The notes under the pieces were generated by a model, which had not been told where the DNA came from, made no database searches, and was given only the letters and a program-made list of their open reading frames with translations. The translations under genes and the position numbers were made by a program. A DNA stretch of 64,000 bases from Bryopsis sp. KO-2023 (taxonomy: Eukaryota > Chlorophyta > Ulvophyceae > Bryopsidales > Bryopsidaceae), in the NCBI GenBank assembly GCA_030272585.1, contig BSYQ01000005.1:3751501-3815500 (forward strand), in the 5' to 3' direction. Positions 16,827 through 49,011 of this stretch are shown here, piece after piece (position 1 is the first letter of the stretch; each line of letters begins with the position of its first letter).

Positions 16827-16849
16827 CCAACAGCGTGGCCCAAAGCTGG

Positions 16850-26792: not shown

Positions 26793-26979
26793 TGATACGA
26801 ACGTTTGAATTGTAGTACAGTCGTGGTACGGGTATTCGGGTTCTAGGGTGATAAGTTCAGAGAGAACTTGTAAAACTTAATTATCTCTGAGTGTCGAGTT
26901 TCACCCCTGTTCACTCGTTTCTCAAACTCAAGTGTGCACACAACCTCCCAGTGAAAGCCTAGCTAAACAGGGCCTAACA
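26793..26979 (+). repeat. 5' LTR of element B (187 bp)
   Basis: Runs TGATACG to CCTAACA. It is short for a chromovirus. Confidence 0.94.
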
Positions 26980-26982
26980 AAC

Positions 26983-26994
26983 TGGTTTCGGAGC
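26983..26994 (+). other. Primer-binding site of element B
   Basis: TGGTTTCGGAGC, three bases after the LTR; same 12-mer as elements C, D and G. Confidence 0.8.
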
Positions 26995-29202: not shown

Positions 29203-29632
29203 TGTTAGTCTTTTAGCGCTATACGAGGTAGTTTGGGATAGAGCCGAGGGTGGCTGACGCATGTGGGTTCACGAGTAAGACAGATTAGACCCAGAGTTTG
29301 GGGCATGCGTCAGCGTACTACACTTAGGGGTACTTAAGAGGCCCACTCGTTGTTTTGACATTCATTCTTATTCACTTTACTTTGTAAGAACTCGGGATTC
29401 GTGGGATTGGTGTGTTCCCGCTTGTGTGTGTGTTTGTGTGTGTGTGTGTTAAGTGTTTGCCTGACGCAATCACTTCCCAACCCAAGTGCTCTAGTAGCGT
29501 TCACAACCGCGCTAGCTAGAGAGTTGTCTAAATCAACAAACCCCACAAGTATACTTGCGTTAGCCAGCAAGTTATCACGAATCCAATCAACACAGCCGAC
29601 CACTATTGCGTCACCCACAAGCTTCACTATCA
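29203..29632 (+). repeat. 5' LTR of element C (430 bp)
   Basis: TGTTAGTC...CTATCA. It contains an inverted repeat GCTGACGCATG/CATGCGTCAGC (29253-29263, 29304-29314) upstream of a TACTTAAG box (about 29332-29339), and a TG-rich microsatellite (about 29422-29450). Confidence 0.95.
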
Positions 29633-29634
29633 AT

Positions 29635-29646
29635 TGGTTTCGGAGC
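29635..29646 (+). other. Primer-binding site of element C
   Basis: TGGTTTCGGAGC, two bases after the LTR end. Confidence 0.82.
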
Positions 29647-29777
29647 TAGGCAAGAACTTTAAGTTCTTGAGATCGAAACTTGTGAACGTGGCGCAACAAA
29701 CGTTTTTGTTTGTTTGTTTGGTAGAGAGAAACTCCAACCGTGGTTGTTGAGTACTCCCAAATAGTGGCTGAGAGACT

Positions 29778-32429
29778 ATGGCTGACCGTGAACACGCATT
29801 GGCAGTGCGCGAGCCTCAAGTTGAAGAGCCAGGGATTGAACCTGAGTTCGATGAGGAATTGCCTGACGCACCCAATGTTGTGTATCAACAAATAAACGTC
29901 CAGAACATCCACAATGTCCAGCAAGCAGCTGTCGACATAGACATGGGAGCTGATGCGGAAGCCTTAAGAGAGGATGTGGACGCGGTCCATGACCGTGTGG
30001 ACGATTTAGCCCACGGGCTAAGGGGTCACCTGCAGCAAGTTGACCAGACACTGGGGCAGAGGCTAGCCCATACTGAGGCCTCTGTGTCGAACCAACTGGC
30101 TGGCGCATCAGAGGTGATCGGGCAGGCGCTGGAAACACAGCACCAGCATGCGCAACAGGTTGAGGCCACACAGCATGCGGTGGTGTCGCAACAGCAGAAG
30201 CTGGATTCAGTAGCGGCTCAACATAGTCGATACGAGCAGAGGCTATTACGCCAAGATATCGACCATAGGAAAGAAAGAGCCGAGATCAAAGCTTCTGTGG
30301 ATGCAATAACGAGGAGAATGGATGCCGCAGACATTCTAGCGGACTCTCGTTTTGCTGACCTAAAAGAAGCAACTGAAGCATCAGCACTTCAGTTAAAACA
30401 ACTCTCCGAGTTATCCCTTGTTCAAGGGCGGAGAATTGAAGGCTTATTAGGAACTGTTGCGGATTCCAACGAAAAAGTCGAACGGACTCTAGAATTGTTT
30501 CGGGAGTCCTTGCATAAGCAAGGTGCTGAGGTGAAGCGTTTGCAGAGCTCAAGAGTAGCAATTCAAAAAGATTTGATTGCCTTGGAGAAAAAGGCATCCA
30601 AAACCTGGGATCAGCAGCAAGATGCAGCTGATGTGGTTGCCTTAAGATTATCTGGCCTGGAACGAAGCATGGAGGATGTGAGTGGCGGAAGCCAGAGTGC
30701 CCAAAGTGGAAGTGATGCTCGAGCAGTATCACCAGAGCGTGAAGAATCAACTTCCCCTGAGCCTGAGGACTCAGCCTTTGGGATGCCGCTGCCGAAGAAA
30801 TCAGTAAAGCAGTTGGCTGCATCATGGCCGCCACTGGACCAGAGCTTCGCGGTAGGAATGGTTGGGGCAGGAACCTCAACAATACCGGCTCCTCCAGCAG
30901 TACAGGTCGAGGAGGGTGAAATTGTTGCTGCAGAAGCACCACCATGCACTGCAGTGGATAGCGCACCAGACGCTGATTTCACATTCCCTCAGTTGATACC
31001 TCCAAGTACAAGAGCTCAGCCTGGAGTACGCATCTCAGAACCCGACTCTGCCGATGGATCACGTAGACCCACACGAACTAACCCAAGAGTTCTCTCCTCA
31101 GCAGAAGTGTTATATCAAATTGACCTTGAGCGTGCTAAGGCACAGGTCAGAGAAGAGAAAGGAAAAGAACCCATGCAGATCCCCACACGTACTGGAAGAT
31201 TGGGACTTGGGTTAAGTGCTTTGGGAGCAAGGGTAGAAAATAATCCCTTTGCTGCACTTGGTTCATATGAGTCTACTGGTGGACCCAGTCGAGTTCCTCG
31301 CACGCGTGGTAACTTTGGAGACCCTGGTGATGACGACCCAGATGATGATGGCGGTGATGATTACCGCGACAGACGAAACCGCCCACCTTCCCGCATTCCA
31401 GGTGCGCCTGATGGCGGAGGAGGTGGTGGCGGCGGTGGAGATGGTGGAGGCGGTGGACCTCCCGGTGGACCTCCTGATGGAGGTGGAGGTGGAGGTGGCG
31501 CTGGACCGGCAGGCCCAGGACCTCCTAGGCAAGGACAGTGGTTGCCTAGCACCGTCAAGTTGCAAATGCCTCGCGCATTTAACGGAAGTGGAGAACCAAA
31601 AGCCCGTAAATGGCAAGTGCTCATGACGCGGTACTTGAGAACCTGCGGAGTGCATGAAGCACAGTGGCAATCGATTATGGCCACTAACCTTTATGGGGCT
31701 GCCTCGGATTGGTTAACGGTGCAAGAGTTGAAAATTCACCGAGGTGAAAGACCACCCTTCCGTGACTGGATGGACTTCATGGATGGCTTAGCTACAGCTT
31801 TCGAATTCTCTAGTGATCGAGATGAAGCGTGGCGTGACCTCCACAAACTCAAGCAGACTGGAACCGTGAAACAGTTCGTCAAAGAGTTTCAGCGGTTAGT
31901 CTTGAGGATTCCAGACCTCGAAGAGGATCACCAGTATTTGCTCTTCGTGGATGGACTTAAAAGTGAAGTTCAGAAGTTAGTCGCAGCAACGGTACCTCGA
32001 GATGTCGAGGCCGCCATCATATCCGCCGAACGATTGGAAGCCCTTGGAGTTGGAACACAAGGCCAAGGAGGGCAAACCAATCAGAAAAAGAAAGGAGTCT
32101 GGCGTGGTGGAAGAAAGAAGAAAGGCCAGAATCAGGGTCAGCAGCAGCAAAACCCTACACCACCAGCCCAAGCACCACCACAAGCTGCCGCAGGAGTGCA
32201 ACAGCAGCAGCAACAGCAACAAGGACGAGGAGGAGGACGTGGTGGTGGTGGACGTGGACGCGGTGGTGGTAACCGTGGAAGAGGACAAGCCAATCAGGGA
32301 AGACAGAACCCCCAGGGGGGAGGGGGATATCATTGTTATCTTTGTGGAAAGAAGGGTCATCCTGTGAGGCAATGTCCTAGATTGGAGGAGGTGAAAAACC
32401 TCCCCGATGTAAAAAAAATGTTAAACTGA
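29778..32429 (+). CDS. gag: Gag of element C
   Basis: 883 aa, long for a Ty3 gag. From ATG at 29778 the N-terminal half is Gln/Glu/Asp-rich with coiled-coil heptads (residues ~40-300); a Ser/Pro-rich acidic region follows (~310-450), then a Gly/Pro hinge with poly-Gly (~545-585). The retrotransposon gag domain spans ~600-740 (WQVLMTRYL ... LKQTGTVKQFVKEFQRLVLR). Then come a Lys/Gln stretch, an RG-rich RNA-binding tract (~815-850) and a CCHC knuckle C-x2-C-x4-H-x4-C near the end. The stop TGA lies 10 nt after an A-rich slippery heptamer. Confidence 0.93.
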   Translation: MADREHALAVREPQVEEPGIEPEFDEELPDAPNVVYQQINVQNIHNVQQAAVDIDMGADAEALREDVDAVHDRVDDLAHGLRGHLQQVDQTLGQRLAHTEASVSNQLAGASEVIGQALETQHQHAQQVEATQHAVVSQQQKLDSVAAQHSRYEQRLLRQDIDHRKERAEIKASVDAITRRMDAADILADSRFADLKEATEASALQLKQLSELSLVQGRRIEGLLGTVADSNEKVERTLELFRESLHKQGAEVKRLQSSRVAIQKDLIALEKKASKTWDQQQDAADVVALRLSGLERSMEDVSGGSQSAQSGSDARAVSPEREESTSPEPEDSAFGMPLPKKSVKQLAASWPPLDQSFAVGMVGAGTSTIPAPPAVQVEEGEIVAAEAPPCTAVDSAPDADFTFPQLIPPSTRAQPGVRISEPDSADGSRRPTRTNPRVLSSAEVLYQIDLERAKAQVREEKGKEPMQIPTRTGRLGLGLSALGARVENNPFAALGSYESTGGPSRVPRTRGNFGDPGDDDPDDDGGDDYRDRRNRPPSRIPGAPDGGGGGGGGGDGGGGGPPGGPPDGGGGGGGAGPAGPGPPRQGQWLPSTVKLQMPRAFNGSGEPKARKWQVLMTRYLRTCGVHEAQWQSIMATNLYGAASDWLTVQELKIHRGERPPFRDWMDFMDGLATAFEFSSDRDEAWRDLHKLKQTGTVKQFVKEFQRLVLRIPDLEEDHQYLLFVDGLKSEVQKLVAATVPRDVEAAIISAERLEALGVGTQGQGGQTNQKKKGVWRGGRKKKGQNQGQQQQNPTPPAQAPPQAAAGVQQQQQQQQGRGGGRGGGGRGRGGGNRGRGQANQGRQNPQGGGGYHCYLCGKKGHPVRQCPRLEEVKNLPDVKKMLN

Positions 32430-32464
32430 CCGCCAGGCAGGAAACTGCTTCGTCTGAGCCTGGC
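32411..32464 (+). promoter_or_regulatory. -1 ribosomal frameshift signal, element C
   Basis: Eight A residues (32411-32418) contain A AAA AAA in gag phase (gta aaa aaa atg). Downstream is a perfect 7 bp stem GCCAGGC (32432-32438) with GCCTGGC (32458-32464); an alternative small hairpin GCAG-GAAA-CTGC lies inside. The spacer to the stem is 14 nt, longer than the usual 5-9. The -1 frame is open from here to the pol ATG at 32687. Confidence 0.72.
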
Positions 32465-32686
32465 CGACGCAAACGTCGTAAGCGAAATAGAGTTCGTAGG
32501 CGGCGTAGGAAGCATAGATCAAAAGTAGGTGCCTCGAAAAAGGTTAAAAGTACTCACAGCGGAAAACCTGAGGAGCGGACTAGTACACCGCGTGAAGAGA
32601 GAACAGAGACACTCTCCACATCTACCCAATCGGCACATGACAACTGCGATTGGAACAATGAACAGAAGGAAAGCACACCGGATGAG

Positions 32687-35600
32687 ATGGACGCGCCTCA
32701 TGCGTCATCTGCATCTCTTCCCTCTGTTAGTGAATCTGTGGGCTCATTGGAGTCACAGAGTAGTCTACAGGAGTCCCTGCCTGCAGACGTAGACGATAGT
32801 GGGTCAGAAACAACCCAGCGGTCTACCACAGAGCGAGTTAATGTGTCAGAAGTTCGATCAACTTCGTCAACCAAGGGTGACACATGCCCTCTGTTAAAAA
32901 TTCAAGAAGTGCCTGTGAGAGGGTACGAAGTAAAAGCACGGATCAAGACCACGGACCTTTATGCATTCATTGATTGTGGAAGTACCGCAAACTATATCAA
33001 TGATAAGGTAGCGCGTGATCTCGGGTTGTCGATTACACCAAGCTCCAAGAGAGCAATGTTGGCAAACGGAGATATTAAAGAACTGGCTGGCAGCTGTAAC
33101 AACCTCCGAGTAAAGATAGGAGGGCTGAAGTGCAAAATGAAAGCGGATCTGTTCCCAGACCTTGGTTATGACCTAATATTGGGCATGCCTTGGTTGCAGA
33201 AAGAAAACCCCCGCATAGACTTTCAGCAAAATGAGATTTCAGTTTGCAAAAACAGCCAAGTGTTTCATCTCCCGTTGCGTCATCCAACCCAAGAGAATAT
33301 TGAACCTGAACGAAAAGTACAGTCGATCCTGCAAGAAGTGCCAGTGACTGAGTGTTCAGCTAAACGAATGATGCGTCATCTCAAAACAGAGACAGCATTC
33401 ATGGTTGTAGTGCAAGAGTCTGAAGAGAAAGCTTTAGGCCAACATGAATTGCCTGACGCAATAGAGCGAACACAGCCATTCAACACTGAGGATGAGATTG
33501 GTAAACTTATTCGTTCAGACACCCCTGCCGAAATTAAAAAGGTGGTAGAAACACACCGTGGTGTGTTCCCTCGTGATTTACCCCCAGGGATCCCTCCGAA
33601 GAGAAAAGGTCATGAATTTAAGATAGACCTGGAGGATCCAACACCTATCCATCGTCCAATATACAAGCTTTCACCAGCAGAGCTGGATGAAGTGAAAGCA
33701 CAAGTGGACTACCTTCTGGAACAGAAGAAAATCAAACCATCCGAGTCCCCTTGGGGCGCGCCAATCCTATTTGTACCGAAAAAGGATGGAGGCTTAAGGA
33801 TGTGTGTGGATTACAGGTGGATTAATAAGGTGACGGTGAAAAACCGATATCCTTTACCCCTGCCAGAAGAATTGATGGATAGAGTGTTCAAAGCCAAAGT
33901 GTTCTCGAAGTTAGATCTGCGATCAGGCTATTGGCAATTTCCAGTAAGGCCATCTGATACAGATAAAACAGCGTTCCGCACGAGATACGGTCACTTTGAG
34001 TTTTTGGTAGCGCCTTTTGGGCTAACCAATTGCCCAGCGCAATTCCAAACTCTAGTGCAAGACCTACTCGCAGAGTTTTTAGATGATTTTGTTGTTGTCT
34101 TTATCGATGACATACTCATCTTCTCTGAAAATATGGAACAGCATGCCGAACACTTAGAGAAAGTCCTGTCGCGACTAGCAGAATATCAGCTTTTTGCTAA
34201 GGCAAGTAAAAGTGAGCTGGCTGTCGCAACAGTAGACTATCTTGGCTACCGCATTAGCGGAAGTGGGTTAAAACCACAGGAACAAAAAGTGAAGGCAGTG
34301 AAGGAGTGGAAGGAACTACAGAGTGTTAGTGATGTACGTAGTTTCCTTGGAATGGTTTCATACTATAGAAAATTCATTCCCCAGTTTGCACATGTTGCTG
34401 GACCACTCCATGACTTAGTGAAAAAAGACCATCCCTGGAGATGGGGACAGGTTGAGCGTGGCGCATTCAATGAACTGAAAAAGCGTTTAAGTCAAGCTCC
34501 CGTCCTTATTTTTCCAGATGCGTCACTGCCTTACACTGTGATCACTGATGCGTCGAATGAGGCCATCGGTGCCGTGTTAACACAGGATCACGGAGAGGGG
34601 CTACAGCCAATAGCTTACCTCTCACGTAGATTCAAGCCTGCCGAGCTTAACTATGCACCATACGACAAAGAGTTGTGTGCAATATGTTATGCGATGGTGC
34701 AGTGGAGACATTATCTAGAAGGTTGTGCGGGTGGAGTAACAGTGTTCACTGACCACCAACCTCTGACGCATATTCTGTCGCAGAGGAACCTTTCTAGAAC
34801 CCAAGCAAGATGGCTTGAGGCGGGGTACCTGACTTCGATCAACCCCAAGATCTCCTATATCAAAGGCAAGGCTAATGTGTTAGCAGATGCTCTCTCCCGC
34901 AGTGTTCCTAAGCCCGTGGAAACTGCGATGAACATTTCCACTTGGCAAGTGCATCAAGCAAGCCAAGACGAGTGGAAACAAGCCCTCCAAGCTGATAACT
35001 CCTTGGTGAAGATATTGCGGAAGCTTGAGAGTGGCGAGGAAGTTGAGGGATATTTCCTCAGAGAGGGAATACTCTGGACGGTCCCAAAGAGAGGATTAGT
35101 CGAGAAAGTGGTGGTTCCTAAAGGCCAGCGCAATAAGATCATGAAGGAGTGCCATGAGACACCTTCAGCAGGCCATACAGGACCAGCGCGAACAGGAGAA
35201 ATCCTAGCGCGGCGATATTGGTGGAAGGGGTGGATGAATGAGTTGAAGGCATTTGTGCGCGAATGCCCTGTGTGCCAACAAATAAAGGCTGACACACAGA
35301 AGCCTATGGGCTTACTTCAACCCCTGCCAATACCTGAGCGGAAGTGGGAGCAGATTACCACTGACTTGGTGACAGATCTACCAGCATCCAATGGGTTTAG
35401 TGCTGTAGCTGTCTTTGTCGATAGACTTACCAAGTTTGTGCATTTCGCCCCATGTACTAAAGAGATTACCGCTGCAGGATACGCCCAACTTTTTATCGAA
35501 CATGTTTACCGCAACCATGGCCTACCTAAAGTGATTGTGTCTGATAGAGACCCTCGCTTTACCAGCAAGTTCTGGCAGACGCTGTTTAAAGCTCTGGGTA

Positions 35601-36427
35601 CAGAGATTCGTATGAGTACAGCTTACCACCCTCAGACGGATGGGCAGAGTGAGGTTACCATACGTACTCTGGAAAATTTTCTACGGCCATATGCTGAGAG
35701 GTATCCCCATAAGTGGGTTGAGTATTTACCTACAGCAGAGTTTGCAGCAAACAATGCAGTGAATGCGAGTACAGGATTCGCACCTGCATACTTGATGTAT
35801 GGGTACCATCCAGAAACACCAAACATTGGTGGGACGGCAACGCAATTTCAGGTGGAAGCAGTTAAGACTATGGTAGCACGGATGGCACAGGACTTAGATA
35901 CCGCAAAAGCATATTACTCTAGAGCACAACACAGAATGTGTGTGAGTGCAAACAAGAAGAGAAAAGATATTGCTTTTGAGAAAGGGGATAAAGTCCTGAT
36001 AAAAAGCCGTTTTATTCCGTTGGCTGCTTTGAACAAAGTGAGTCCCAAACTGCGCCGTCGATTTGTGGGTCCCTTTGACATTGTGGAGAAAATATCAAAG
36101 GTGGCTTACAGAGTTCAACTTCCGGAAACATGGCTCATTCACCCAGTGTTTCATGTTTCTAAGTTCAAGCGTTATCACGCCTCGAGTGATAACAGCAGGC
36201 AGATACAACCTCCAGAAGGAGAGTTGATTGGTAGCGAAGTAGAGTATGAGGTCGAAAATATCCTAAGGGCTAGAGGTAAACGCAATCGTGAATACCTAGT
36301 GCTGTGGAAAGGATACGATCTACTTGACGCTACTTGGGAACCTGAAGCTAATCTGGTTAACGCACCAGATATACTTCGCGCATTTAAAGAGAAAGAAAAA
36401 AAAGAGTTGCAGAAAGGAAGAGAATAG
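32687..36427 (+). CDS. pol: Pol of element C (PR-RT-RNaseH-IN-chromodomain)
   Basis: 1246 aa counted from the first ATG, but the frame is open back to the slippery site (32411), adding about 90 residues that include a very basic tract (RRKRRKR...RRRRRK, about 32464-32520) that may serve as a nuclear localisation signal. Order: protease with D-C-G at 96-98, where the family normally has D-T-G or D-S-G; RT with FIDD near 472-475; RNase H (TDASNEAIGA); integrase with HHCC and D,D,E (TTDLVTDLP, VSDRDPRF, QTDGQSEV); GPY/F module (RRRFVGPFDI); chromodomain (YLVLWKGYDL...TWEPEANL). All frames are open. Confidence 0.95.
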   Translation: MDAPHASSASLPSVSESVGSLESQSSLQESLPADVDDSGSETTQRSTTERVNVSEVRSTSSTKGDTCPLLKIQEVPVRGYEVKARIKTTDLYAFIDCGSTANYINDKVARDLGLSITPSSKRAMLANGDIKELAGSCNNLRVKIGGLKCKMKADLFPDLGYDLILGMPWLQKENPRIDFQQNEISVCKNSQVFHLPLRHPTQENIEPERKVQSILQEVPVTECSAKRMMRHLKTETAFMVVVQESEEKALGQHELPDAIERTQPFNTEDEIGKLIRSDTPAEIKKVVETHRGVFPRDLPPGIPPKRKGHEFKIDLEDPTPIHRPIYKLSPAELDEVKAQVDYLLEQKKIKPSESPWGAPILFVPKKDGGLRMCVDYRWINKVTVKNRYPLPLPEELMDRVFKAKVFSKLDLRSGYWQFPVRPSDTDKTAFRTRYGHFEFLVAPFGLTNCPAQFQTLVQDLLAEFLDDFVVVFIDDILIFSENMEQHAEHLEKVLSRLAEYQLFAKASKSELAVATVDYLGYRISGSGLKPQEQKVKAVKEWKELQSVSDVRSFLGMVSYYRKFIPQFAHVAGPLHDLVKKDHPWRWGQVERGAFNELKKRLSQAPVLIFPDASLPYTVITDASNEAIGAVLTQDHGEGLQPIAYLSRRFKPAELNYAPYDKELCAICYAMVQWRHYLEGCAGGVTVFTDHQPLTHILSQRNLSRTQARWLEAGYLTSINPKISYIKGKANVLADALSRSVPKPVETAMNISTWQVHQASQDEWKQALQADNSLVKILRKLESGEEVEGYFLREGILWTVPKRGLVEKVVVPKGQRNKIMKECHETPSAGHTGPARTGEILARRYWWKGWMNELKAFVRECPVCQQIKADTQKPMGLLQPLPIPERKWEQITTDLVTDLPASNGFSAVAVFVDRLTKFVHFAPCTKEITAAGYAQLFIEHVYRNHGLPKVIVSDRDPRFTSKFWQTLFKALGTEIRMSTAYHPQTDGQSEVTIRTLENFLRPYAERYPHKWVEYLPTAEFAANNAVNASTGFAPAYLMYGYHPETPNIGGTATQFQVEAVKTMVARMAQDLDTAKAYYSRAQHRMCVSANKKRKDIAFEKGDKVLIKSRFIPLAALNKVSPKLRRRFVGPFDIVEKISKVAYRVQLPETWLIHPVFHVSKFKRYHASSDNSRQIQPPEGELIGSEVEYEVENILRARGKRNREYLVLWKGYDLLDATWEPEANLVNAPDILRAFKEKEKKELQKGRE

Positions 36428-36876
36428 GGAAGCAGAGTGTTTGATGGCTAAGGTGGAACTCCTTATAGCAAGGGGGCGCGAAAAAGGATACCTTAGAAAA
36501 ACTCTGTCGACTTCCAAACCAACTCTTTAACTTTAATGCGTTAGGTGCCTAAGTTATTTGGCTGGCGCAGTAAGTGTAGCTTCAGTAGTACTTTAGAAAC
36601 CGGGCAAACGATGTCACATTCGAGATAGTGTGGTTGTTCCGAGAAAACCCCTATCAAGTGACGTGTTGAGGTGGTCTTGACGAGACTCCAACCGAGCAAA
36701 ACGTTGGTGTCTCACCCCAATAACCCAACGAGGAAAGTGTACGAGTCACCCAGCCTTATAAGCGCAGCCCTCGAACCATTTTGCCCTAGTGTTTGTGTAA
36801 ACGGAGCGAGCTCCTGAGTGAAAAAGAGTCTAAAGACGCACAAACCGTTGTTATTTCTTTCTTTCCGACGAACATA
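36428..36876 (+). promoter_or_regulatory. Spacer with putative internal promoter for the third gene, element C
   Basis: 449 bp without a gene. A TTATAAG box at 36756-36762 lies about 120 bp before the third-gene ATG. The leader after it (CCCTCGAACCATTTTG, GTAAACGGAGCGAG) has a clear counterpart at the same place in element B. A subgenomic mRNA started here is an inference; splicing is the alternative. Confidence 0.55.
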
Positions 36877-38691
36877 ATGGCTGCCGACACACCCGCCGCA
36901 ATTATTGCGAGGTTGGAAGCGGAGGTAGCTCAAAAAGAAGAGGAGCTGCAGCACTTTACGTCGACCGCAGAGGAAGTGCTGCAGAACAATGAGGCCTTAA
37001 CCCGGCAGCTCTCAGAGTTGAGTGACCGGACGAAAGCAGCTGAGGCTGCGAAGGAGGCAGCGGAGAAAGCCAAGGATAAGGCGGAGGCGGAAAAGAAAGA
37101 AGCGGAGGACAAGACTAAGGTCTTGGAAGAAAAATTGGAAGCCATGAAGCTGAAGAAGCAGCGGTTCCAATCTCACATGATGGCTAACCATCGTGAGAAT
37201 GACCTCCGCAAGCAAGCTCTCGGGGGAATGGTGGATCGATTTACCGCGGTAGAGGAAACGCTGCAGCGAGCTGTAGCAACCGCGTGGAGTGCAGCAGCCA
37301 ACAACCTTAAGAAGGAATTGGCAGAACAAGAGCTGCAGATCGATTTGCTGGGAGAGTCCCTCAGAGACGGCTCTGAAAAACTTCAAGTGCAGAGTGAAAC
37401 AACGGACAAGATGCTGCGTTTGAACCCGCCGGTACCAGCACCACGGGTACGCGAAGAACTGGATCGCCAAGTCCAAGTTCTGTTGTCAAACGCAACACTT
37501 GATCTGGAACCGTCCAAGGACGATGATGCGGGAGGCTCAAGCAAGGGCAAGGGGAAAGGGAAAAACAAACGCCCAAGCTCGCCGTGTAGGGATGAAGATC
37601 CACACGGAAAGAGAAGGCGAGAGGACGGTGACGATGAAGGTGGTGAGCCACCGAGGGATCGTATGCCTGGAGATGCAGCAAGAGCCAACTTGTTACTCAA
37701 GTTAAAGGCTGCCGCATTAAAGACTCCAGCACCCTCACAACCAGCGCCAACAGTTCAGACTCCCGGAGATGAGGCTACCGCAATAGCACCGGGGGAGGAC
37801 TTATTCGACATGAGAGAGGAGGAGCTTTTGGACTTGGATTTTCACGAAGAAATTGACTTCGGCAGTCCACCTCCTAGGCTCGAAGGTCCTAGTTCTGAAC
37901 TGGAGGACGGGGAAATAAGGAATGATGAAGGGCCAAGCCAGGTGACAGAGGTTCAGCGTGCGATCCATCCACCGTTGGAGTTAGCTCCAACAGAAGCAGC
38001 ACTTCGGGCTTTCCGAGAAAAGGTTAAGCTCAGGAGATTAAGGGCGGCTGCTCAGGACGAAGTGGATGCTGCACCCAGCGAAGTGAACCTGTCACGGGAG
38101 GATATCGAGGAGGCTTGTAACCCCATCACTGCGTCAGAGAAATGGCCGAAGGTCCAATATACTAACCCCAGGGACCGAGCCTTGCAAAATTACCGCGGCA
38201 ACCGGCACTTTCACGAGTTGCCCATGTGCATTTGGTGCGGGAGAAGCCCAATGCAAGCAAGTGCTCAGCGGCTGACGCAGAAGAAGTATTCCGTCCTTCC
38301 TTGTGGGTATCACCTCGTGTGTGATGCTCATTGGTTGGCATACTCGATGCTGGGGCGCATCGTCACGGCGGTCCAAAAAGTCGCGGAAGTGGACAACAAG
38401 TCCATCGCCACCGTCTCCCCATTCTCTCTACCTGCCCATATGTTGAAGCTGACACGCTCGACGTTCGAAGAAATCCCTCCGTTCCCGGCTGAGCACGAGA
38501 AGTTGCCACACTGCAACATGTGTGTGAAGCGGCAGCTCAAGGTGTCCGGCATCACACGGGATCTGCCATTCCTAAAGTCCAAAAGGGTGGCTGCCGCATT
38601 TGATCCCTGTGTCCGGTATCGTGCAGTGCAGCAAGCGCATGCGCAGGAGCAGCGTGCTAATCAGCAAGCGCAAACGCCGGAACAGCGTTAA
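36877..38691 (+). CDS. Third gene (ORF3) of element C: coiled-coil protein with RING-like Cys/His array
   Basis: 604 aa from ATG 36877; upstream in-frame sequence has no earlier ATG. Residues ~10-170 are Ala/Glu/Lys-rich heptads (coiled coil). Residues ~205-245 are Gly/Lys/Arg-rich (GKGKGKNKRP, HGKRRRE; possible nuclear signal), followed by an acidic Pro-rich region (~250-370). The C-terminal third has C451-x2-C454-x21-C476-x2-H479-x2-C482-x2-H485-x60-C546-x2-C549, a RING-like spacing with an unusual second His. Element B's ORF3 has the same array although most of the protein differs. It lies on the sense strand between pol and the 3' LTR. It is not an env: no signal peptide or membrane segment is seen. 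Function unknown; ubiquitin/SUMO ligase or nucleic-acid binding are possibilities only. Confidence 0.85.
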   Translation: MAADTPAAIIARLEAEVAQKEEELQHFTSTAEEVLQNNEALTRQLSELSDRTKAAEAAKEAAEKAKDKAEAEKKEAEDKTKVLEEKLEAMKLKKQRFQSHMMANHRENDLRKQALGGMVDRFTAVEETLQRAVATAWSAAANNLKKELAEQELQIDLLGESLRDGSEKLQVQSETTDKMLRLNPPVPAPRVREELDRQVQVLLSNATLDLEPSKDDDAGGSSKGKGKGKNKRPSSPCRDEDPHGKRRREDGDDEGGEPPRDRMPGDAARANLLLKLKAAALKTPAPSQPAPTVQTPGDEATAIAPGEDLFDMREEELLDLDFHEEIDFGSPPPRLEGPSSELEDGEIRNDEGPSQVTEVQRAIHPPLELAPTEAALRAFREKVKLRRLRAAAQDEVDAAPSEVNLSREDIEEACNPITASEKWPKVQYTNPRDRALQNYRGNRHFHELPMCIWCGRSPMQASAQRLTQKKYSVLPCGYHLVCDAHWLAYSMLGRIVTAVQKVAEVDNKSIATVSPFSLPAHMLKLTRSTFEEIPPFPAEHEKLPHCNMCVKRQLKVSGITRDLPFLKSKRVAAAFDPCVRYRAVQQAHAQEQRANQQAQTPEQR

Positions 38692-38885
38692 GGAGGAGGG
38701 AAAAGGAGTTATCGTCGACCAAGTGTGTGCGTGCAGCAGCTGTCAGAGACGTCAGAGCAAGAGCCAGGTCCAAGACAGTTGGGTGTGGGTATGGGAGTGG
38801 GTGAGTTTTGTGTTTGTGTTTTTGTGTTTTTGTTTTTCTTTGTGTTTGGTGTGCGTGGGCGCCCACTTTTTGCGGGGGGGGCGTA
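38692..38885 (+). other. 3' untranslated region and polypurine tract of element C
   Basis: GT-rich stretch ending in a G8 run (38874-38881) shortly before the LTR; a plausible plus-strand primer. Confidence 0.65.
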
Positions 38886-39315
38886 TGTTAGTCTTTTAGC
38901 GCTATACGAGGTAGTTTGGGATAGAGCCGAGGGTGGCTGACGCATGTGGGTTCACGAGTAAGACAGATTAGACCCAGAGTTTGGGGCATGCGTCAGCGTA
39001 CTACACTTAGGGGTACTTAAGAGGCCCACTCGTTGTTTTGACATTCATTCTTATTCACTTTACTTTGTAAGAACTCGGGATTCGTGGGATTGGTGTGTTC
39101 CCGCTTGTGTGTGTGTTTGTGTGTGTGTGTGTTAAGTGTTTGCCTGACGCAATCACTTCCCAACCCAAGTGCTCTAGTAGCGTTCACAACCGCGCTAGCT
39201 AGAGAGTTGTCTAAATCAACAAACCCCACAAGTATACTTGCGTTAGCCAGCAAGTTATCACGAATCCAATCAACACAGCCGACCACTATTGCGTCACCCA
39301 CAAGCTTCACTATCA
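38886..39315 (+). repeat. 3' LTR of element C (430 bp)
   Basis: Same length as the 5' LTR, with no difference seen on direct reading. Followed by AGCAT and the rest of B's gag. Confidence 0.95.
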
Positions 39316-40741
39316 AGCATCATACATTCGGCCTTCTATCTTAGGTCACTCCGTGAATGTATACGGAGCTCCATCATCCGGAAACCCCTATGTGGGATGG
39401 GGATCCTATCCGCGTATTCCTCAACGCGCAGGCGGAGGAGGCGGAGGAGGCGGAGGTGGAGATGATGATGGTTCCGGTGATGGAAGTGGCGGAGGCCCAT
39501 CGGACAGAAGTGGCCGTGGGTCTGCACCTGGACCACATATTGGTGGAGGAAGAGAAGGACCATCTAGGAACCCAGGAGGCGGTCCTGGAGATGGTGGTGG
39601 TGGAGGTGGCGGAGGAGGCGGACCTCCTGGTCCCCCAAGTGGGGACCCCGATTTTATGGGCTATGCACGTCCAGAAAATCGTTTGCTTCACATTCCCAAT
39701 GCGGTCAAATTCCCGATGCCGAAACCGTATACTGGCGCTGGCGATCGCTGGATTCGGGATTGGCAGGCAGAACTCACCAACTTCTGCAAAGTGTATGATT
39801 TGGATGAGTCTGTTTGGCTTAAAGTATTCCGCACAAATCTCTCTGGTTCAGCCGCCACATGGCGGAATATGCAAGAGATGCGGATTCGGGAAGGAGTTCG
39901 TCCGATGTTCCAGGACTGGATTCAACTTGTGGAGGAACTAGCCATTGCTTTTGAGCCCACAAGGATGTCCGATGTTTCGCGTAGGAAGCTGCGGAAACTT
40001 CAACAAACAGGGAATGTTCGTTCCTACATCAACGCATTTCGGGATCTCATACTCAGAATTCCGAATATGACGGAGGAGGAACAGTACCTACAGTTTGTTG
40101 ACGGATTGAAACCCCAGATCCGACATCAAGTTGTTACAATGGTGACAGAAGGAGTGGAAGCGGCGATAGTCACTGCCGAAAGAATCGATTCGTTGGGTGG
40201 CCAATCTCAAAACAACCGCGGACGTGGTCGCGGACGAGGGCGATGGAACTGGAATTGGAAAAACAAGCCCAAAGCTGACCAGAACCAGCAGATGCAGGGT
40301 CAGCAACCGCAACCACCACCTCCACCCCAAGATCAAAATCAGCAAATGGGAGGAGGCAACAGAGGTGGAGGCGGCCGTGGCCGCGGAAGAGGCGGAAGAC
40401 GAGGTGGCGGACGAAATCGAGGTGGTGGCGGAAGGCAGCAACAAGGAGGAGCTAGAGGCGGAGGCGCATGTTACATCTGCGGCGAAGTGGGCCATGGTTT
40501 TGGGAAATGTCCCAAAGGTCCAACTTTTCAAAAGTGGCTAAAAGATCGACCTACGTTCGGGGTACTGGCAATTTCCAGTTCGCCCGAAGGATACTGCAAA
40601 AACCGCCTTCCGAACAAGATACGGACATTTCGAGTTTCTCGTCTGTCCTTTCGGAATGTCCAACTGTCCAGCCCAGTTTCAGACAATGGTGCAGGATTTG
40701 TTGGGCGAGTTTTTGGACCACTTTGTGGTTGTTTTCATTGA
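39316..40741 (+). pseudogene. gag: Gag of element B, C-terminal part, ending out of frame in RT sequence
   Basis: In frame with 27477-29202 once element C is removed. It contains a Gly-rich hinge (nt ~39429-39630), a retrotransposon gag domain (nt ~39700-40190; LQQTGNVRSYINAFRDLILR), an RG/Gln-rich tract and a CCHC knuckle (C-x2-C-x4-H-x4-C, nt ~40468-40510). At about 40535-40545 the sequence jumps into the middle of reverse transcriptase; gag then reads that DNA in a wrong frame to a stop at 40741. The natural gag end and the frameshift site are deleted. Confidence 0.87.
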
Positions 40742-43109
40742 CGACATCTTGGTGTTTTCCAACTCAGTGGAGGAACATGTCGATCATTTGAAACAAGTAT
40801 TCGAACGCCTTGCAAAGTATAAATTGTACGCCAAAGCAAGCAAGTGCGAAGTGGGGGTCAGCGAGACCGACTATTTGGGGTATCATCTGTCAGGAAAAGG
40901 CCTGCAGCCAATGAGCGACAAAGTGCGGGCTATACAAGAGTGGAAGGAGCTGAGCTCAGTGACGGATGTGCGAAGTTTTTTGGGCATGGTATCTTACTAT
41001 CGTAAGTTTATACCAGAGTTTGCTCGAATTGCAGGACCCTTGCATGATCTCATCAAAAAGAATCATGTGTGGACGTGGGGACCTCTGCAACGGGAAGCTT
41101 TCGGCAAACTCAAGGAAAAGATTACCCGCACACCGATCCTTCTCCTACCCGATTCGCTGCTCAAGTACACCGTAATAACGGACGCATCAGGGACTGCATA
41201 TGGAGCAGTTTTGTGTCAGGACCATGGAAAGGGGCTACAGCCAATAGCTTACCTTTCAAGACGACTAAAACCAGCTGAGACACGATATTCCGCTTACGAG
41301 CGAGAGCTGGGGGCTATAGCATATGCGCTTAGCCAATGGCGACATTATCTCGAAGGAGCGCCTGGGGAGGTTACGGTTATGACGAACCATCAGCCGTTAA
41401 CCTACTTCATGACCCAAGCAACAATGTCGCGGACCCAAGCCCGATGGTGGAGGTCAGGGTTTTTTGATTCCATAGGTCCAACAATCGTCTATGTTCCTGG
41501 CAAAGCCAACGTTTTGGCTGATGCGTTATCCCGAAGCCTTCCTGATGCTAAGGATCAAATTCATGCTTTGTCGACCTGGGTGGTAGATGAAGCGGATGCA
41601 TGGAAGACCGCTATTGCAGACGATCAGAAACTGCAAGCGGAAGTCAAGAAAATCCAAGAGGGTAAACCCACGAAACTTTCTCTAGAGGATGGCTGGTTGT
41701 ATTATCAAGCAACTCCCACCTCAGACAAAGTATTAGTGGTACCGAATGGATACCGAGAAAAGGTGATGGGGGAATTCCATGATGTGCCGAGTGCCGGCCA
41801 TGCAGGCGCGGCCCGCACCATGGATGTGCTGAAGCGATACTATTGGTGGAAAGGAGTTGGCAAGGATGTTCAAGCATATGTGCGGACATGTCCTGTCTGT
41901 CAGCGGACGAAAGCTGATACGACAAAGCAAAAAGGACTTTTGCAGCCACTCTCAATTCCGTCAGCAAAGTGGGAACAGATTACCACTGACCTCGTGACTG
42001 ATTTACCAAAGTCACATGGGTTTACCGCCATTGCGGTATTTGTTGATCGGTTAACCAAGTACGTTCGCTTTGCACCGTGCACCAAGGAAATAACCGCCCC
42101 AGAATATGCGAAGTTGTTTGTGGACAAAATCTACAAACACTACGGCCTTCCCAAAGTGATCATCTCCGATCGTGACCCCAGATTCACAAGTTCCTTCTGG
42201 AGGTCGATGTTTTCACTATTGGGAACCCAACTCCGAATGAGCACCGCCTATCATCCACAAACGGATGGGCAGTCTGAAGTAACAATTCGGGTGTTGGAGG
42301 ATTTCTTGCGGCCTTTTGTGGAACGGTACCCAGATCGTTGGGTAGAGTTTTTGGCGACAGCAGAATTCGCTGCCAATAACTCCCGCAATGTATCCACAGG
42401 CTATGCCCCAGCGCATTTGTTGTATGGGCAGCATATGGGCCAGATTACTGTGCATAGGAAGTTGACGGCAAAAGAGGAGTCCGAAATGGCAACCGAAATG
42501 GTCAAGAGGATGGACGAACAACTGCAGCAGGCAAAGCAGCAGTATGCAACCGCACAAGAGCGGATGTGTGTCCAGGCCAACAAAAAGCGACGAGAAGTGA
42601 CGTTTAAAACGGGGGATGAAGTATTGGTGAAGAGTGCCTTCATACCATTGCACTCCCTACAAAAGATCCCACCTAAACTTCGTCGACGTTTTGTCGGACC
42701 ATTCGTTGTGGACAAGGTCATATCCACAGTGGCCTACCGTCTCAAACTTCCACCCCATTGGACTATACATGCCACCTTCCATGTTTCCAAGCTGAAGGCA
42801 TACAACCGCTTGTCGGAAGATGATAAGCGGGAGGTGGAACTTCCCGAAGGGGAATTGGTGGATGGCACCATCGAATACGAGGTGGAGCGTATTCTGCGGG
42901 ACCGAGGAGCCTCCAACCGTAAGGAGTACTCGGTTTTGTGGAAGGGCTTTGATTTGATGGAAGCCACCTGGGAGCCAGAAGCCCACCTGGCCAATGCCAG
43001 CGACCTTTTGGCTGAGTACTTGAAGAACCGCACGCGCTTGCCGACTAAAGAAGAAGTCCGATCAGAACGGGCAAAGAGACGGACAAGGCGGCGGGGGTTA
43101 GCTCTCTAG
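40542..43109 (+). pseudogene. pol: Pol of element B lacking protease and N-terminal RT
   Basis: The RT frame starts at the deletion joint (KIDLRSGYWQF at about 40542, preceded by TAA at 40539) and is then open to 43109. Present: RT palm with FIDD, thumb, RNase H (TDASGTAYGAVLCQD), integrase HHCC and D,D,E, GPY/F module (RRRFVGPFVV) and chromodomain (YSVLWKGFDLMEATWE). Missing: the whole protease and roughly the first third of RT, about 1.5 kb judged against element C. The first ATG (40656) is internal and not a natural start. In the tether for H2 bases of RNase H the motif reads TNHQPLT where relatives have TDHQPLT, a change at a conserved Asp. Confidence 0.9.
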
Positions 43110-43438
43110 ATGACACAGATTGATGTGGGGATGGGAACGATGGTGAGAGGATGGTATCAGTTCACCCACAATCAAATACATCTGGAGGAGCAAGCTAATC
43201 AGTACACAGTCAAGGGGTTGAGGGTACTTACAAAGCGGGCTAGAATCTGACTGAGGCGACTCTCAATAGAGGAGGTCAGCCATCGGTGACAAGTGGGTGA
43301 CTCTACCACTTGTATATATACCCACTTCTTCAACCCTCCGCACCATTTTTCACTTTCGAGCAACCCAGTAAACGGAGCCGAGTTCAGCAAAGAGCGAAGT
43401 GTGCGTGTGTGTGTTTGCGGAGAGACCGTCCAGCAGCT
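43110..43438 (+). promoter_or_regulatory. Spacer with putative internal promoter for the third gene, element B
   Basis: 329 bp without a gene. TATATATA at 43313-43320 lies about 120-126 bp before the ATG, the same position as TTATAAG in element C. It is followed by CCCTCCGCACCATTTTT and GTAAACGGAGCCGAG, matching the element C leader. Confidence 0.57.
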
Positions 43439-45202
43439 ATGTCTTCCAAAGGCAACCGTGAAAGCAAGGATGAGCAAATCACGCGTTTGCGGATGGAACG
43501 AGACAAATATGGAAAGGAATTAGCGGAAGCTGTGGAAGTAAGCAACAAGGCGTTGACGGCAAACACAGCATTGCTCCAGCAATTGACGGAAGTAAACAAA
43601 CTCGCTCAAGAAGGAGTAGGCCATCGAGATGAACTGGCCGACAAACTTGCCGAACAAGAAGCACTGATGAGGGAAGCGGCTCAAAAACATGCGGAAGAGC
43701 GGGCTAAAGAGGAGGCCGACTACCACCAGAAATTTCGGACATTCCAACAAGCAATCAGTGATGCCAAAGTGAATGCACGGGGATTAGCTTCTGAGTTGAA
43801 GGAAGCTCGGACAACAATCAAAACGCTGGAAGAGGAAAACCAGGCTGTCCGACAAGAGAAAATATGCATCACTTCGGAGTTGGGATCCGTGAAAAACAAC
43901 CTCCAAACTGCGCTGAAGGATCAGTCCTTCTATATCAAAGAAAACAAGGAATTGCGGGAAGCTCAGACAAAACGCTTCCAAGCGCTGAAGCAGTTGGAGA
44001 AAGAGGTGGCGGCCCTCAAAGCGGAAAAAGCGGCGGACAAACGTGGTGAGCGCGTCGCGCTCGAGACCAAGATCATGATGACGGAGCTGCTAGCATCCAG
44101 AGCAGAGGCGGCCAGGCTTCGTCAAATCTTGGAAAAATTCCCACAAGATTTGGCGGCCATGGCAACTGGAGTCGTCCAAGGGAAGCTCCACACTCTGTCC
44201 GATCAAATGTCGCTGTTGCATAAGGGGAAATTTCAAGATGTTGTAGACCTCCACAAGATAAAAGAAATCACCCTGACGCATACAAGCTTGCCGCCCGCGA
44301 ATGAACTGAAGCATGTCCGAGACTGGGATGGGAGACTCACAAGGGAGGCCACAAAGATTGCAAGAATGATGGGCCAACCACCATCGCAGCCGACAAACGA
44401 GGACGACAGCAGCGATGACGACAGTGATTCCTCGGAAGATGAACAACACCAAAAAGAAAAGGAAGCTGCGGAGGCAGCCAAGGCAGCGGCCGACATTCTG
44501 AAGGCCGACAAATTGAAGTCCGACAAAGCTAAGGCCGACAAAGCTAAGTCCGACAAAGCTGCAGCCGACAAGTTGAAATCCGACAAAGCTGCAGCCGACA
44601 AAGCAGCAGCCGCCAAAGCTAAGACGGACACGATCAAGCCCAAGCCCAAGCCAATCAAGACGACAACACCGACCCGCAAGAGAATGCGTCCATCAAAGAT
44701 TGCAAAGGAGCTGGAGGAGACACTGCTCAAACGTCACAAGGCAAATGGTGATCCTCGGTTGTTGGGCCGCACATGTTATCATTGTGCAGGACGACAACTG
44801 CATGTAGGAATTCCTGCAGATTGTCAGTCCCACTTTGTGTGCCCCAAACATTGGACCAGACACCAAGTGACGGAAAGAATGATCCAGCGATGGAAGGACG
44901 ACAAGTCTGTGGTTCCGCTTAACATGACTGTGACGGAACTGCATCTCGGCAAGCGAATGCCGGACTTCCTTCCCCTTGCACCACCACCACCAGCCGACGC
45001 CATCGACAATTTGGTTGTTCCATGCCAAATTTGTAATATCCGCAAATGTGGATTTCCGTCCGGCTCGAGCACAAAGGCTCTCCGGTCGACGATGACGACA
45101 ATCCTTCATGAGATGTGGGATCCAGAGCAGGACATTGATTCAGACATTGACTCTGATGTTGCTGGTGGCGGCGGTACTGTTGGACCAAGCCAAGCCGACT
45201 AG
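43439..45202 (+). CDS. Third gene (ORF3) of element B: coiled-coil protein with RING-like Cys/His array
   Basis: 587 aa from ATG 43439. Residues ~10-250 form a long heptad-rich coiled coil. Residues ~320-340 are acidic (EDDSSDDDSDSSEDE). Then comes a Lys/Ala/Asp repeat (ADK, SDK; ~345-395) and a basic patch (TRKRMRPSK). The C-terminal array is C446-x2-C449-x12-C462-x2-H465-x2-C468-x2-H471-W-x56-C529-x2-C532-x4-C537, aligning with element C's array (also HW after the last His). It is intact although gag and pol of the same element are broken, suggesting selection in cis or a recent insertion. Function unknown. Confidence 0.83.
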   Translation: MSSKGNRESKDEQITRLRMERDKYGKELAEAVEVSNKALTANTALLQQLTEVNKLAQEGVGHRDELADKLAEQEALMREAAQKHAEERAKEEADYHQKFRTFQQAISDAKVNARGLASELKEARTTIKTLEEENQAVRQEKICITSELGSVKNNLQTALKDQSFYIKENKELREAQTKRFQALKQLEKEVAALKAEKAADKRGERVALETKIMMTELLASRAEAARLRQILEKFPQDLAAMATGVVQGKLHTLSDQMSLLHKGKFQDVVDLHKIKEITLTHTSLPPANELKHVRDWDGRLTREATKIARMMGQPPSQPTNEDDSSDDDSDSSEDEQHQKEKEAAEAAKAAADILKADKLKSDKAKADKAKSDKAAADKLKSDKAAADKAAAAKAKTDTIKPKPKPIKTTTPTRKRMRPSKIAKELEETLLKRHKANGDPRLLGRTCYHCAGRQLHVGIPADCQSHFVCPKHWTRHQVTERMIQRWKDDKSVVPLNMTVTELHLGKRMPDFLPLAPPPPADAIDNLVVPCQICNIRKCGFPSGSSTKALRSTMTTILHEMWDPEQDIDSDIDSDVAGGGGTVGPSQAD

Positions 45203-45363
45203 AGACTGACCAAGCAAGAGACAGTGGTTTCGGGAGTTGGTAGTGGGCTGAGTGTTAGTTGGACTTTTATTCTTTTTTCTGTTGATTGACTTTTGGGGTT
45301 TTCTTTTTCGTGTGTTCACGCACAAGGGTGAGGGCACCCTTTGGGGGGGGGGGGGGGAGTAGT
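45203..45363 (+). other. 3' untranslated region and polypurine tract of element B
   Basis: Ends with a long G-run (about 45342-45356) followed by AGTAGT and the LTR. The homopolymer length may be uncertain in the assembly. Confidence 0.65.
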
Positions 45364-45550
45364 TGATACGAACGTTTGAATTGTAGTACAGTCGTGGTAC
45401 GGGTATTCGGGTTCTAGGGTGATAAGTTCAGAGAGAACTTGTAAAACTTAATTATCTCTGAGTGTCGAGTTTCACCCCTGTTCACTCGTTTCTCAAACTC
45501 AAGTGTGCACACAACCTCCCAGTGAAAGCCTAGCTAAACAGGGCCTAACA
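45364..45550 (+). repeat. 3' LTR of element B (187 bp)
   Basis: Same as the 5' LTR on reading; followed by TSD AACGT. Confidence 0.94.
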
Positions 45551-47753
45551 AACGTACTTCAGTGATGTTTGTAGGACGTGGCCACTTCTTAAGCTTCGCC
45601 ACCTTGTCGTCCATAGGCATAACGCCGGCCGCTGATATCCAATGTCCGAGATATTCTACTCCTGTCCGCGCCAGCTCGCACTTCGGCAGTTTGCAGTATA
45701 GCTTCTGCTCCCGAAGTTTCGCCAGAACCGCCTCCACATGACGGGCATGGTCTTTAGCTGTCCGCGAAAATACCAAGATGTCATCGAGGAAAACAACGAC
45801 GAAGTCGTCCAGGTGCTCCCGCAAGATGTCGTTGAGCATCGACATGAAGTATCCTGGGGCTCCCGTTAGCCCGAACGGTACCACTAAAAACTCATAGTGG
45901 CCGTATCTGCTTCTGAACGCGCTCTTGTGCACGTCCGCCGGGTCTAGACGCTGCTGCCAATATCCTGTTCGCAAGTCGATCTTGGTGAAGTAACGACTTC
46001 CCCCAAGTCGGTCGAACAATTCCTCAGTCCGCGGCAGAGGATACCTGGTTTTGACCGTGTGGCGGTTCAAAACGCGGTAATCAATGCACATTCGCATTGT
46101 TCCCTCCTTCTTGGGCACGAACAATATCGGTGCTCCGTATGGGGAATGCGATGGCCGGATAAACCCCTTCTCGAGTAGGAAATCGATTTGGGTCTTCATC
46201 TCGTCCAACTCTGCGGGACTGTACTTGTACAACGGCCGCCAAGCAGGCTTTGTCCCTGGTTCCAAATCGATCCTCATATCGTATTTGGGCCGCAAAGGCG
46301 CTATTCCAGGTAAATCTGCCGGAAACATGTCAGCATTCCTCTTAAACGCGTCTCTGATAACCTTCTCAGGTATCTTCTTGAGAGCGTCCCCAAACCGTGG
46401 ATCCACTTCCTTCGGTAGTTCGGTTGGTTCCTCCAAAGGTTTGTCGGCCTCTGGAAATGCTGATACTTTGCCCGTTGTAGGATGTATTAACAGTAACTCC
46501 AACTTCCTCTTCCCATCTGTTTCTGTCGGATTCCTTCGCGCTTGTCTCACGAGAACAAGACACGAACGCTTTCTCCTTTGTCTGAGCGCTTTAGCTGCTG
46601 CTTTAGCGGTCATGAACTCTCCTTTTAACGGTTTCTCCTCAGATATAGTCGGCACCACTCCTGGCGGGATACCCTTTACAAGAGCATCTGGTTGGTTCCG
46701 CCTAGAGATGTGCATTTCGTGTTCCCTCCAATCTATCTGTGGGTTGACTCTTGCTAGCCATGGTTTCCCCAAGATGATTGAATGACTTGTCTTCGGTAAC
46801 ACGTACAAAGTTGTGGTGGACGTTGTGGGGCCAATCCGCACTACTGTTCGGACTTGATGCTTAACCTCCACTTTTGTTCCATCCGCTAGTGAGACTTCGG
46901 TGGGGGATTCCACCTTCTCCAACTTGCGGTCCAACAACTTGACCACATCTTCCGCAATGAAATCGCCCGATGCGCCACTGTCGATAAGCGCCGTCACCGG
47001 GTGATTGGCGATTTTCACTTCGACCCGGAACAAGGTACCAATAGCGTCAGCTTCGCTAATAGAGGTAACCAATGTCCTCCTTCCAGGTTCAGAAGTACTA
47101 GAAGTTTGTTTGGTGGAACGAACTTGGCCTGTAGGACGGGCAACTGCGGAGAGCGCCGACTGTTCCAGAGGAAGTGTCTGGCAGCCAGTGCTACTTGATA
47201 ACATCCGCAGTGGTTGTTTTGTGTCACAACTTCGGCTCTCAATAGCCAAACTCCGCCGCCAAGGTTTAATCCCAGAGCGGTTTGCTTTGTTGGCCGGAGG
47301 GTTCGCGCTCTCTCTCGTGGGGGCTTGCGTCTTCCCTCTCCACTCTTGCCAAACTGTAGGATGTTGTCCACCTCCCCTTACCGGACTTTGGTCCTGCCGG
47401 TTTCCGCCAAACCATCCAGATTCGGTCATGTTCAGGTTGCCAATGTGCCTACTGAGCGATACCCCCGGGGTATCATGCACGTTGGAACAATCCGCTTGAC
47501 GTCCTCTAGAGAATCCTTCCATAGCCGCTAATAACTTGTTTATCACACTTGCACGTTTTCTTCCTTGTCCACCCCGGACACCCCTTCTAACCCGCTTCTT
47601 CCTTTTATCCCCTTGTGGTACTGCATGGTTCAGTCTCGCCGCCGATCCCCTCTTGTGGGCTTGCTTCAGTCGGCGATTTTTCCGCCTGCCAGGTCGTTTT
47701 ACCTCTCCGGCAGCCCGATCGGAGGAGGCTAGTTTCCCTGTTTCTGTCTGCAA
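45551..47753 (-). pseudogene. pol: Pol of element F, N-terminal part (protease and RT), cut by element B
   Basis: The frame overlaps the end of gag by 25 nt and lies in -1 relative to it; it has no convincing ATG, so entry by frameshift is likely. A Lys/Arg-rich N-terminal region precedes a protease with D-S-G (LIDSGASGDFI, nt ~46990-46960) and RT through the palm (VFLDDILVF) and the conserved YLGHWIS segment. It stops at the AACGT duplication; the next codons are found at 26787. A His/Tyr-rich RT core and DD pair are intact. Confidence 0.92.
47715..47738 (-). promoter_or_regulatory. -1 ribosomal frameshift signal, element F
   Basis: On the minus strand gag ends cag gga aac tag, giving the heptamer G GGA AAC (47738-47732) directly before the stop (47731-47729). 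A modest stem follows (CTCCG with CGGAG). The same heptamer in the same place as element A. Confidence 0.7.
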
Positions 47754-49009: not shown

Positions 49010-49011
49010 AT

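Follow-up and report, generated by a model that had tools for sequence, protein, structure and literature searches.

A Third Gene with an Invariant Cys/His Array and a Candidate Internal Promoter in Chromoviruses of Bryopsis

Results

Two Nested Elements Carry a Third Gene between pol and the 3' LTR

We analyzed a 64,000-nucleotide stretch of the Bryopsis sp. KO-2023 genome (hereafter "the window") in which two nested LTR elements, B and C, each carry a third gene (ORF3) on the sense strand between pol and the 3' LTR, as a preliminary description of this DNA had proposed. Element B has the features of a chromovirus according to Pfam and its terminal repeats, namely LTRs, gag, protease, reverse transcriptase (RT), RNase H, integrase, and a C-terminal chromodomain, and its Gag bears a zinc knuckle of its own (Pfam). 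The features of the locus are as follows.

29203–39315, + strand: element B, a chromovirus with the order LTR-gag-pol-ORF3-LTR (terminal repeats and Pfam)
29202–29633 and 38885–39316: terminal LTR-sized repeats of B, 432 nt each, 100% identical
29778–32429, + strand: gag of B, 883 aa (Pfam Retrotrans_gag 2e-10, Ty3_capsid 1.5e-8)
32687–36427, + strand: pol of B, 1246 aa, with protease, RT, RNase H, integrase, and chromodomain (Pfam)
36428–36876, + strand: pol-ORF3 spacer of B, candidate internal promoter region
36757–36762, + strand: TATA box of B (TATAAG), 120 nt upstream of the ORF3 start codon
36877 (ATG) to 38691 (stop), + strand: ORF3 of B, 604 aa
36892–37422, + strand: predicted long N-terminal helix of B ORF3, residues 6–182 (single-sequence AlphaFold2)
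37537–37620, + strand: basic patches of B ORF3 with NLS-like KRRR, residues ~221–248
38227–38523, + strand: Cys/His array of B ORF3, residues 451–549, with invariant ligands
26791–45553, + strand: element C, into which B has inserted; 192-nt LTRs, 100% identical to each other
43110–43438, + strand: pol-ORF3 spacer of C, holding TATATATA at 43313
43439–45202, + strand: ORF3 of C, 587 aa
44774–45034, + strand: Cys/His array of C ORF3, residues 446–532
24332–26776 and 45534–48646, − strand: ORFs of an outer Ty3-type element
56221–57197, + strand: start region and cut ORF3 of a second B copy (element 48587–57197)
57204–58297, − strand: start region and cut ORF3 of a third B copy (element 57204–64000)

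The elements are nested three deep (24332–48646), the minus-strand Ty3-type element being split by C and C in turn by B. The ORFs of the C copy in the window suggest that it is missing protease and the start of RT (39353–43109) despite its identical LTRs. The second and third B copies abut tail to tail at 57197/57204, each cut within ORF3 (~57.2 kb). Elsewhere in the window, a tandem unit of ~3.16–3.19 kb that is rich in tRNA genes occupies ~6885–17300 (start-to-start distances of 3162, 3168, and 3190); ARAGORN reports 40 tRNA genes, some with an odd 'cata' anticodon. An identical 219-bp direct repeat at 17641–17859 and 23307–23525, 5.7 kb apart, possibly represents the ends of another element.

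ORF3 Is Maintained in Three Families

We searched the whole genome (91 Mb in 28 contigs) for further copies. A search with the C protein brought out a third family, D, located elsewhere in the genome, whose ORF3 (~597–644 aa in the copies read) shows 35–46% identity in large matched pieces and retains all eight ligands of the Cys/His array together with its Trp. Uninterrupted copies of ORF3 number at least 73 in B (73 of 73 scored matches, from 299 candidates), at least 13 in C (the near-complete copies L009–L021), and at least 34 in D (copies spanning residues 1–621/622, among 78 matches that include those to C). B copies were also chosen by pol. The 37 that were scored, the best of 2267 candidates, are all 100% identical to the window pol and are therefore young. 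An uninterrupted ORF3 lies 452–459 nt downstream of pol in 17 of them; for the remaining 20, examination was confined to the expected zinc stretch, which holds the array without a stop in 18. In one copy (L086/L097) a deletion removed the array and most of the 3' LTR, and another (L095) has a different sequence at the expected zinc stretch. With 17 intact ORF3s and 18 intact zinc stretches, the array is thus kept in 35 of the 37 pol-chosen copies, and within this genome the gene is present in most related elements. Outside the window (G000:C9:267489–312282), five identical B pol genes recur with an exact period of 10,264 bases and form a tandem element array, all five zinc stretches of which (L080–L084) are intact.

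Among 28 distinct B copies, singletons comprise 32 synonymous and 23 nonsynonymous changes (ω ~0.25), shared variants 39 and 13 (ω 0.12), and changes in the array part (residues 441–560) 11 and 2; these copies are the best scoring of the 73 scored protein matches, a choice that favors few amino-acid changes. The zinc stretches of the pol-chosen B copies contain 6 synonymous and 2 nonsynonymous variants among 19 sequences. Mean dN/dS in C is 0.179 (14 copies, drawn from 25 loci), with 0.106 in the array part. The value for D is 0.196 (16 copies from 21 loci, the others being without the expected start or shorter than 591 aa), with 0.149 in the N-terminal part and 0.268 in the array part; the array part of D is less constrained than the N-terminal part, its value being raised by copies with altered ends (L048, L052, and L056, whose altered C-terminal frames inflate the nonsynonymous counts). 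The copies in the window, which were not chosen by ORF3, give ORF3 dN/dS values of 0.05, 0.06, and 0.59 over 310 codons, the last reflecting six changes, alongside 0.06–0.13 for gag and 0.07–0.12 for pol. ORF3 is under constraint broadly comparable to that on gag and pol, and the selection suspected in the preliminary description is borne out within this genome by purifying dN/dS values, mostly 0.1–0.25 and not near 1.

The Cys/His Array Is Invariant across Families and Has No RING Profile Match

The array ligands are C451, C454, C476, H479, C482, H485 (followed by W486), C546, and C549 in B, and C446, C449, C462, H465, C468, H471 (followed by W472), C529, and C532 in C. The spacing is that described earlier, with 21 (B) or 12 (C) residues between the second and third ligands and 59 (B) or 56 (C) after the Trp. 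Shuffling the B, C, and D proteins yielded the array in 0 of 100,000 trials for each. When one B, one C, and three D proteins are aligned, 47 of the 737 columns are invariant, including all eight ligands and the Trp, and these nine residues are unchanged in every one of the 28 distinct B copies. The flanking protein has diverged as had been observed, whole-protein identity between B and C being 16%, whereas the ligands and the HW are kept. BLASTP linked B to C only via the Cys/His core (E 0.002), and when profiles of B and C/D were compared, nothing but the Lys/Ala-rich helix aligned, the array being left out. The case for homology of the array between B and C/D is therefore made by the order and spacing of the ligands, by the HW, and by position and gene context.

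The preliminary description had likened the array to a RING finger, and ORF3 to a ubiquitin or SUMO ligase. RING fingers (Pfam zf-RING_2) likewise have eight Cys/His ligands in four pairs, but the ORF3 array differs in its loop between ligands 6 and 7 (57–60 residues, compared to 4–48 in the RING definition given in that description), in the use of His as ligand 6, in the HW, and in the lack of a profile match. Pfam found neither RING nor another credible zinc family at the array, returning only a weak Vps36-NZF-N match (E 0.11, 12 B residues). As a positive control, the zf-RING_2 profile detected 43 host RINGs above the cut-off in this genome; none of its 44 matches overlaps any of 122 ORF3 places. 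RING membership was thus rejected on the lack of a profile match and the over-long loop; the array may be a distant cross-brace. A PDB sequence search against solved zinc domains gave no credible match (best E 0.62, to gp41), and in NCBIfam the N-terminal helix alone matched, weakly, proteins that are long and helical. Searches of a protein database with the C-termini of B and C brought out no relatives (771 candidates, none at E ≤ 1; 433, none at E ≤ 10), although this database does contain pol proteins 72–74% identical to that of B (P0008–P0010); the viral contigs searched also held no ORF3 relatives. No similarity of ORF3 to B Gag was found, and an origin of ORF3 from Gag was rejected on this ground.

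Residues 6–182 of B ORF3 are predicted by single-sequence AlphaFold2 to form one helix (block pLDDT 79–91 over residues 11–170), with pLDDT <50 for most of the protein outside it. The predicted helix is compatible with the N-terminal coiled coil claimed earlier but is not proof of one: in a crude heptad test, shuffles scored as well in 52 of 200 cases for B and 33 of 200 for D (not significant), and in 4 of 200 for C (significant). A model of the array region built from two sequences (pLDDT 39) is uninformative on the fold or a cross-brace. The basic patch that had been noted is present in B (~221–234 plus KRRR at 245–248), C (~410–424), and D (~461–476), and is NLS-like in each family. Each family also has an acidic patch ahead of the array (B ~306–327, C ~318–340, D ~331–352), and NES-like patterns are seen in the ORF3 proteins as well.

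A TATA Box Lies at a Near-Constant Distance Upstream of ORF3

Over the full length of B (29203–39315, both LTRs included), the sense strand has a single TATA[AT][AGT], at 36757 in the pol-ORF3 spacer; in the right part of C (39316–45553) the motif occurs twice, before ORF3 and inside pol at 40818. The distance from the TATA box to the ORF3 ATG is 120–121 nt in all 28 distinct B copies, 125–126 nt in 18 of 18 C copies, and 116–119 nt in 18 of 18 D copies, so that the box stands 116–126 nt ahead of the ATG in all 64 copies examined. The 30 nt starting at the TATA box are without variation in C (π 0.000, 0 of 30 columns variable in 17 of 18 copies, the outlier L025 being omitted), and in D the single variable column of the 30 is a gap (π 0.000, 18 copies). 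For comparison, π at 4-fold sites of ORF3 is 0.049 in C (14 copies) and 0.067 in D (16 copies), and it is 0.071 in the D leader past +60. No such contrast is present in B (π 0.014 for the TATA region versus 0.019 for 4-fold sites).

Directly upstream of the C TATA box lies a palindrome, ACAAGTGG...CCACTTGT (43289–43313). Palindromes with 8-bp arms stand directly ahead of the TATA box in both C and D, and the only difference between the two in these arms is matched on the other arm, weak evidence as a single case; the B spacer contains no comparable perfect palindrome. Comparison of spacers with LTRs revealed no clear excess of shared 8-10-mers (8-mers in C and D, 1 versus 1.7 expected; in B, 10 versus 6.2 expected, partly GT runs), which weighs slightly against a DNA site common to the two putative promoters. 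The LTR of B contains an inverted repeat at 38936–39010 with perfect 10-bp arms and a ~40-nt loop, at which overlapping 8-mer matches number 3 versus 0.25 expected.

Divergence between C and D Is Older in ORF3 Than in pol

The comparison of C with D is based on the window C and one D copy (L034). Their pol tails (290 codons) share 90% protein identity with ps 0.475 and dN 0.057, whereas their ORF3s show ps 0.84 and dN 0.62 (ps 0.856 in the gap-free array part). DNA identity per 100 nt is 75–90% through pol, spacer, and TATA box up to 43335, falls to 40–58% over 43336–45335, and is 80% at 45336–45435, where the LTR begins. Because synonymous saturation is confined to ORF3, the ORF3s diverged before the pols did, and accelerated protein evolution by itself, which would leave synonymous sites unsaturated, is not enough to account for the pattern. 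The earlier divergence of the ORF3s implies in turn that one family swapped its ORF3 beneath a shared promoter, as would be expected if ORF3 were transcribed as a separate unit. On these sequence comparisons, ORF3 behaves as an exchangeable cassette.

Discussion

Proposed Function of ORF3 and Alternatives

We tentatively propose that ORF3 is a nuclear regulator of its own element made from an internal promoter, a reading that we consider quite possible though short of probable. Transcription from the TATA box in the pol-ORF3 spacer would give ORF3 a short mRNA of its own, so that the protein could appear ahead of the genomic RNA driven by the LTR and without depending on it. The protein would dimerize or form larger oligomers through the predicted N-terminal helix and enter the nucleus by means of its basic patches, and its C-terminal Cys/His module would bind both zinc and nucleic acid of the element itself. 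Once bound, the regulator would raise the production or export of full-length RNA, and its mode may be transcriptional activation, anti-silencing, or RNA export, among which the evidence is equal. The constraint, the predicted helix, the NLS-like and acidic patches, the probable zinc module, the lack of a transmembrane stretch, and the putative private promoter are consistent with a nuclear regulator that acts early. Against this reading weigh the TATA region of B, almost as variable as 4-fold sites, the k-mer comparison of spacers with LTRs, the low-pLDDT model of the array, the profile comparison in which the array did not align, the single dN/dS value of 0.59, and the weaker constraint on the array part of D. 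Movement of a regulator cassette while promoter and pol stay in place would be expected under a host arms race or family-specific recognition.

The same features can be read in other ways. ORF3 might be spliced from the LTR transcript with the TATA box a coincidence, and a precedent exists in CERV, which arises from a spliced mRNA (PMC10309623); we consider this unlikely, given that the box is the sole sense-strand TATA[AT][AGT] of B, keeps the same distance in three families, and heads 30 nt without base substitution in C and D. A helix, a Cys/His module, and a basic patch on a sense-strand gene constrained like gag and pol would also suit a particle or RNA-packaging accessory, that is, a helical, zinc-bearing protein beside Gag in the virus-like particle with a nucleocapsid- or assembly-like role. 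Such a role is made improbable by the dissimilarity to B Gag, itself equipped with a zinc knuckle, and by the putative separate TATA promoter, which would uncouple ORF3 from Gag. Alternatively, the NLS-like patches, together with a module that may bind nucleic acid, might serve to lead the pre-integration complex to chromatin, but the chromodomain is the usual chromatin tether and B pol already has one at its C-terminus, so that an integration-targeting factor seems very unlikely.

If ORF3 were a ubiquitin or SUMO ligase of RING-like type, it would serve to eliminate a host factor involved in silencing or restriction. In favor of this reading, every ligand is retained across three families, and the order C-x2-C, C-x2-H, C-x2-H, C-x2-C with eight ligands resembles a cross-brace. 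Against it stand the long loop between ligands 6 and 7, the PDB search without a credible match, and the profiles, which find 43 host RINGs, none at ORF3, and no credible zinc family; a ligase is decidedly unlikely, and on sequence features we favor the other function suggested in the preliminary description, nucleic-acid binding. An env-like gene has in its favor only the position between pol and the 3' LTR. The best 19-residue hydropathy values (1.01 in B, 0.71 in C, and 0.79 in D) leave no transmembrane stretch, and Env identity, rejected on this basis, is hardly credible. Returning to the regulator proposed above, active-looking chromoviruses with a selectively kept third gene suggest a private regulator beyond the copying machinery. 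If this is correct, regulated gene expression like that of complex retroviruses arose in chromovirus retrotransposons, the elements offer a testable system for control of an element's own transcription, silencing, or RNA export, and the exchange of ORF3 between families points to selection on its specificity.

Comparison with Known Systems

Two ORFs are the usual coding content of an LTR element (PMC3248453). The earlier statement that chromoviruses normally end at pol is nevertheless too strong, as additional ORFs have been published (PMC2864245, PMC11728184): fungal Gypsy elements carry an additional ORF of unexplained function (PMC2864245), plant chromoviruses 5' aORFs of unknown function (PMC11728184), and orchid Ty3 elements an AlkB ORF (PMC9289625). 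Like ORF3, these are extra genes, some with an NLS, that are conserved among copies, but they differ in position or domains, and the accessible portions of these papers mention neither a Cys/His array of this kind nor an internal promoter (PMC2864245, PMC11728184, PMC9289625). The literature searched, with most subscription papers outside the search and others available in part, likewise yielded no such array and no internal promoter in a chromovirus. An extra gene in a Ty3 element is thus of a known kind; of greater interest are the candidate internal promoter and the exchange of ORF3 as a cassette.

VANC, from the VANDAL plant DNA transposons of Arabidopsis and compared here by description only, is an extra anti-silencing protein encoded by transposable elements, and its specificity shifts between related families (PMC5735166). 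The third gene of the C. elegans LTR element Cer1 encodes CERV, a nuclear protein needed for genomic RNA export (PMC10309623). As described in the accessible part of that report, CERV (517 aa) is, like ORF3, a third protein besides Gag and Pol that is highly divergent between species and is not Env, and it has a leucine zipper, a candidate NLS (KRKK), and a Cys-rich region that is possibly a zinc finger (PMC10309623). It differs from ORF3 in its spliced five-exon mRNA, which shares sequence with gag, and in its C4-type region and M and G globular domains; RNA export is demonstrated for CERV only (PMC10309623), and ORF3 is compared with it by features alone.

Foamy viruses make their regulator Tas from an internal promoter, which the available text calls unique to these viruses among retroviruses (PMC3798896). 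The traits compared are a regulator gene near the 3' end and an internal promoter with a TATA box, regulator and promoter being putative for ORF3, and the acidic activation domain of Tas has a possible parallel in the acidic patch of ORF3 (PMC3798896). Foamy viruses, unlike B, C, and D, are retroviruses with env, their internal promoter lies within env, and their Tas-binding sites are known (PMC3798896), whereas spacers and LTRs here show no clear excess of shared k-mers. That a chromovirus lineage independently evolved a foamy-virus-like two-promoter early/late program, with a cassette-borne nuclear zinc-module regulator whose array lies outside described families, is a possibility that we entertain with considerable doubt. 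On present analogy, the layout of these elements is best read as comparable to that of foamy-virus Tas or Cer1 CERV, a comparison drawn at the level of organization.
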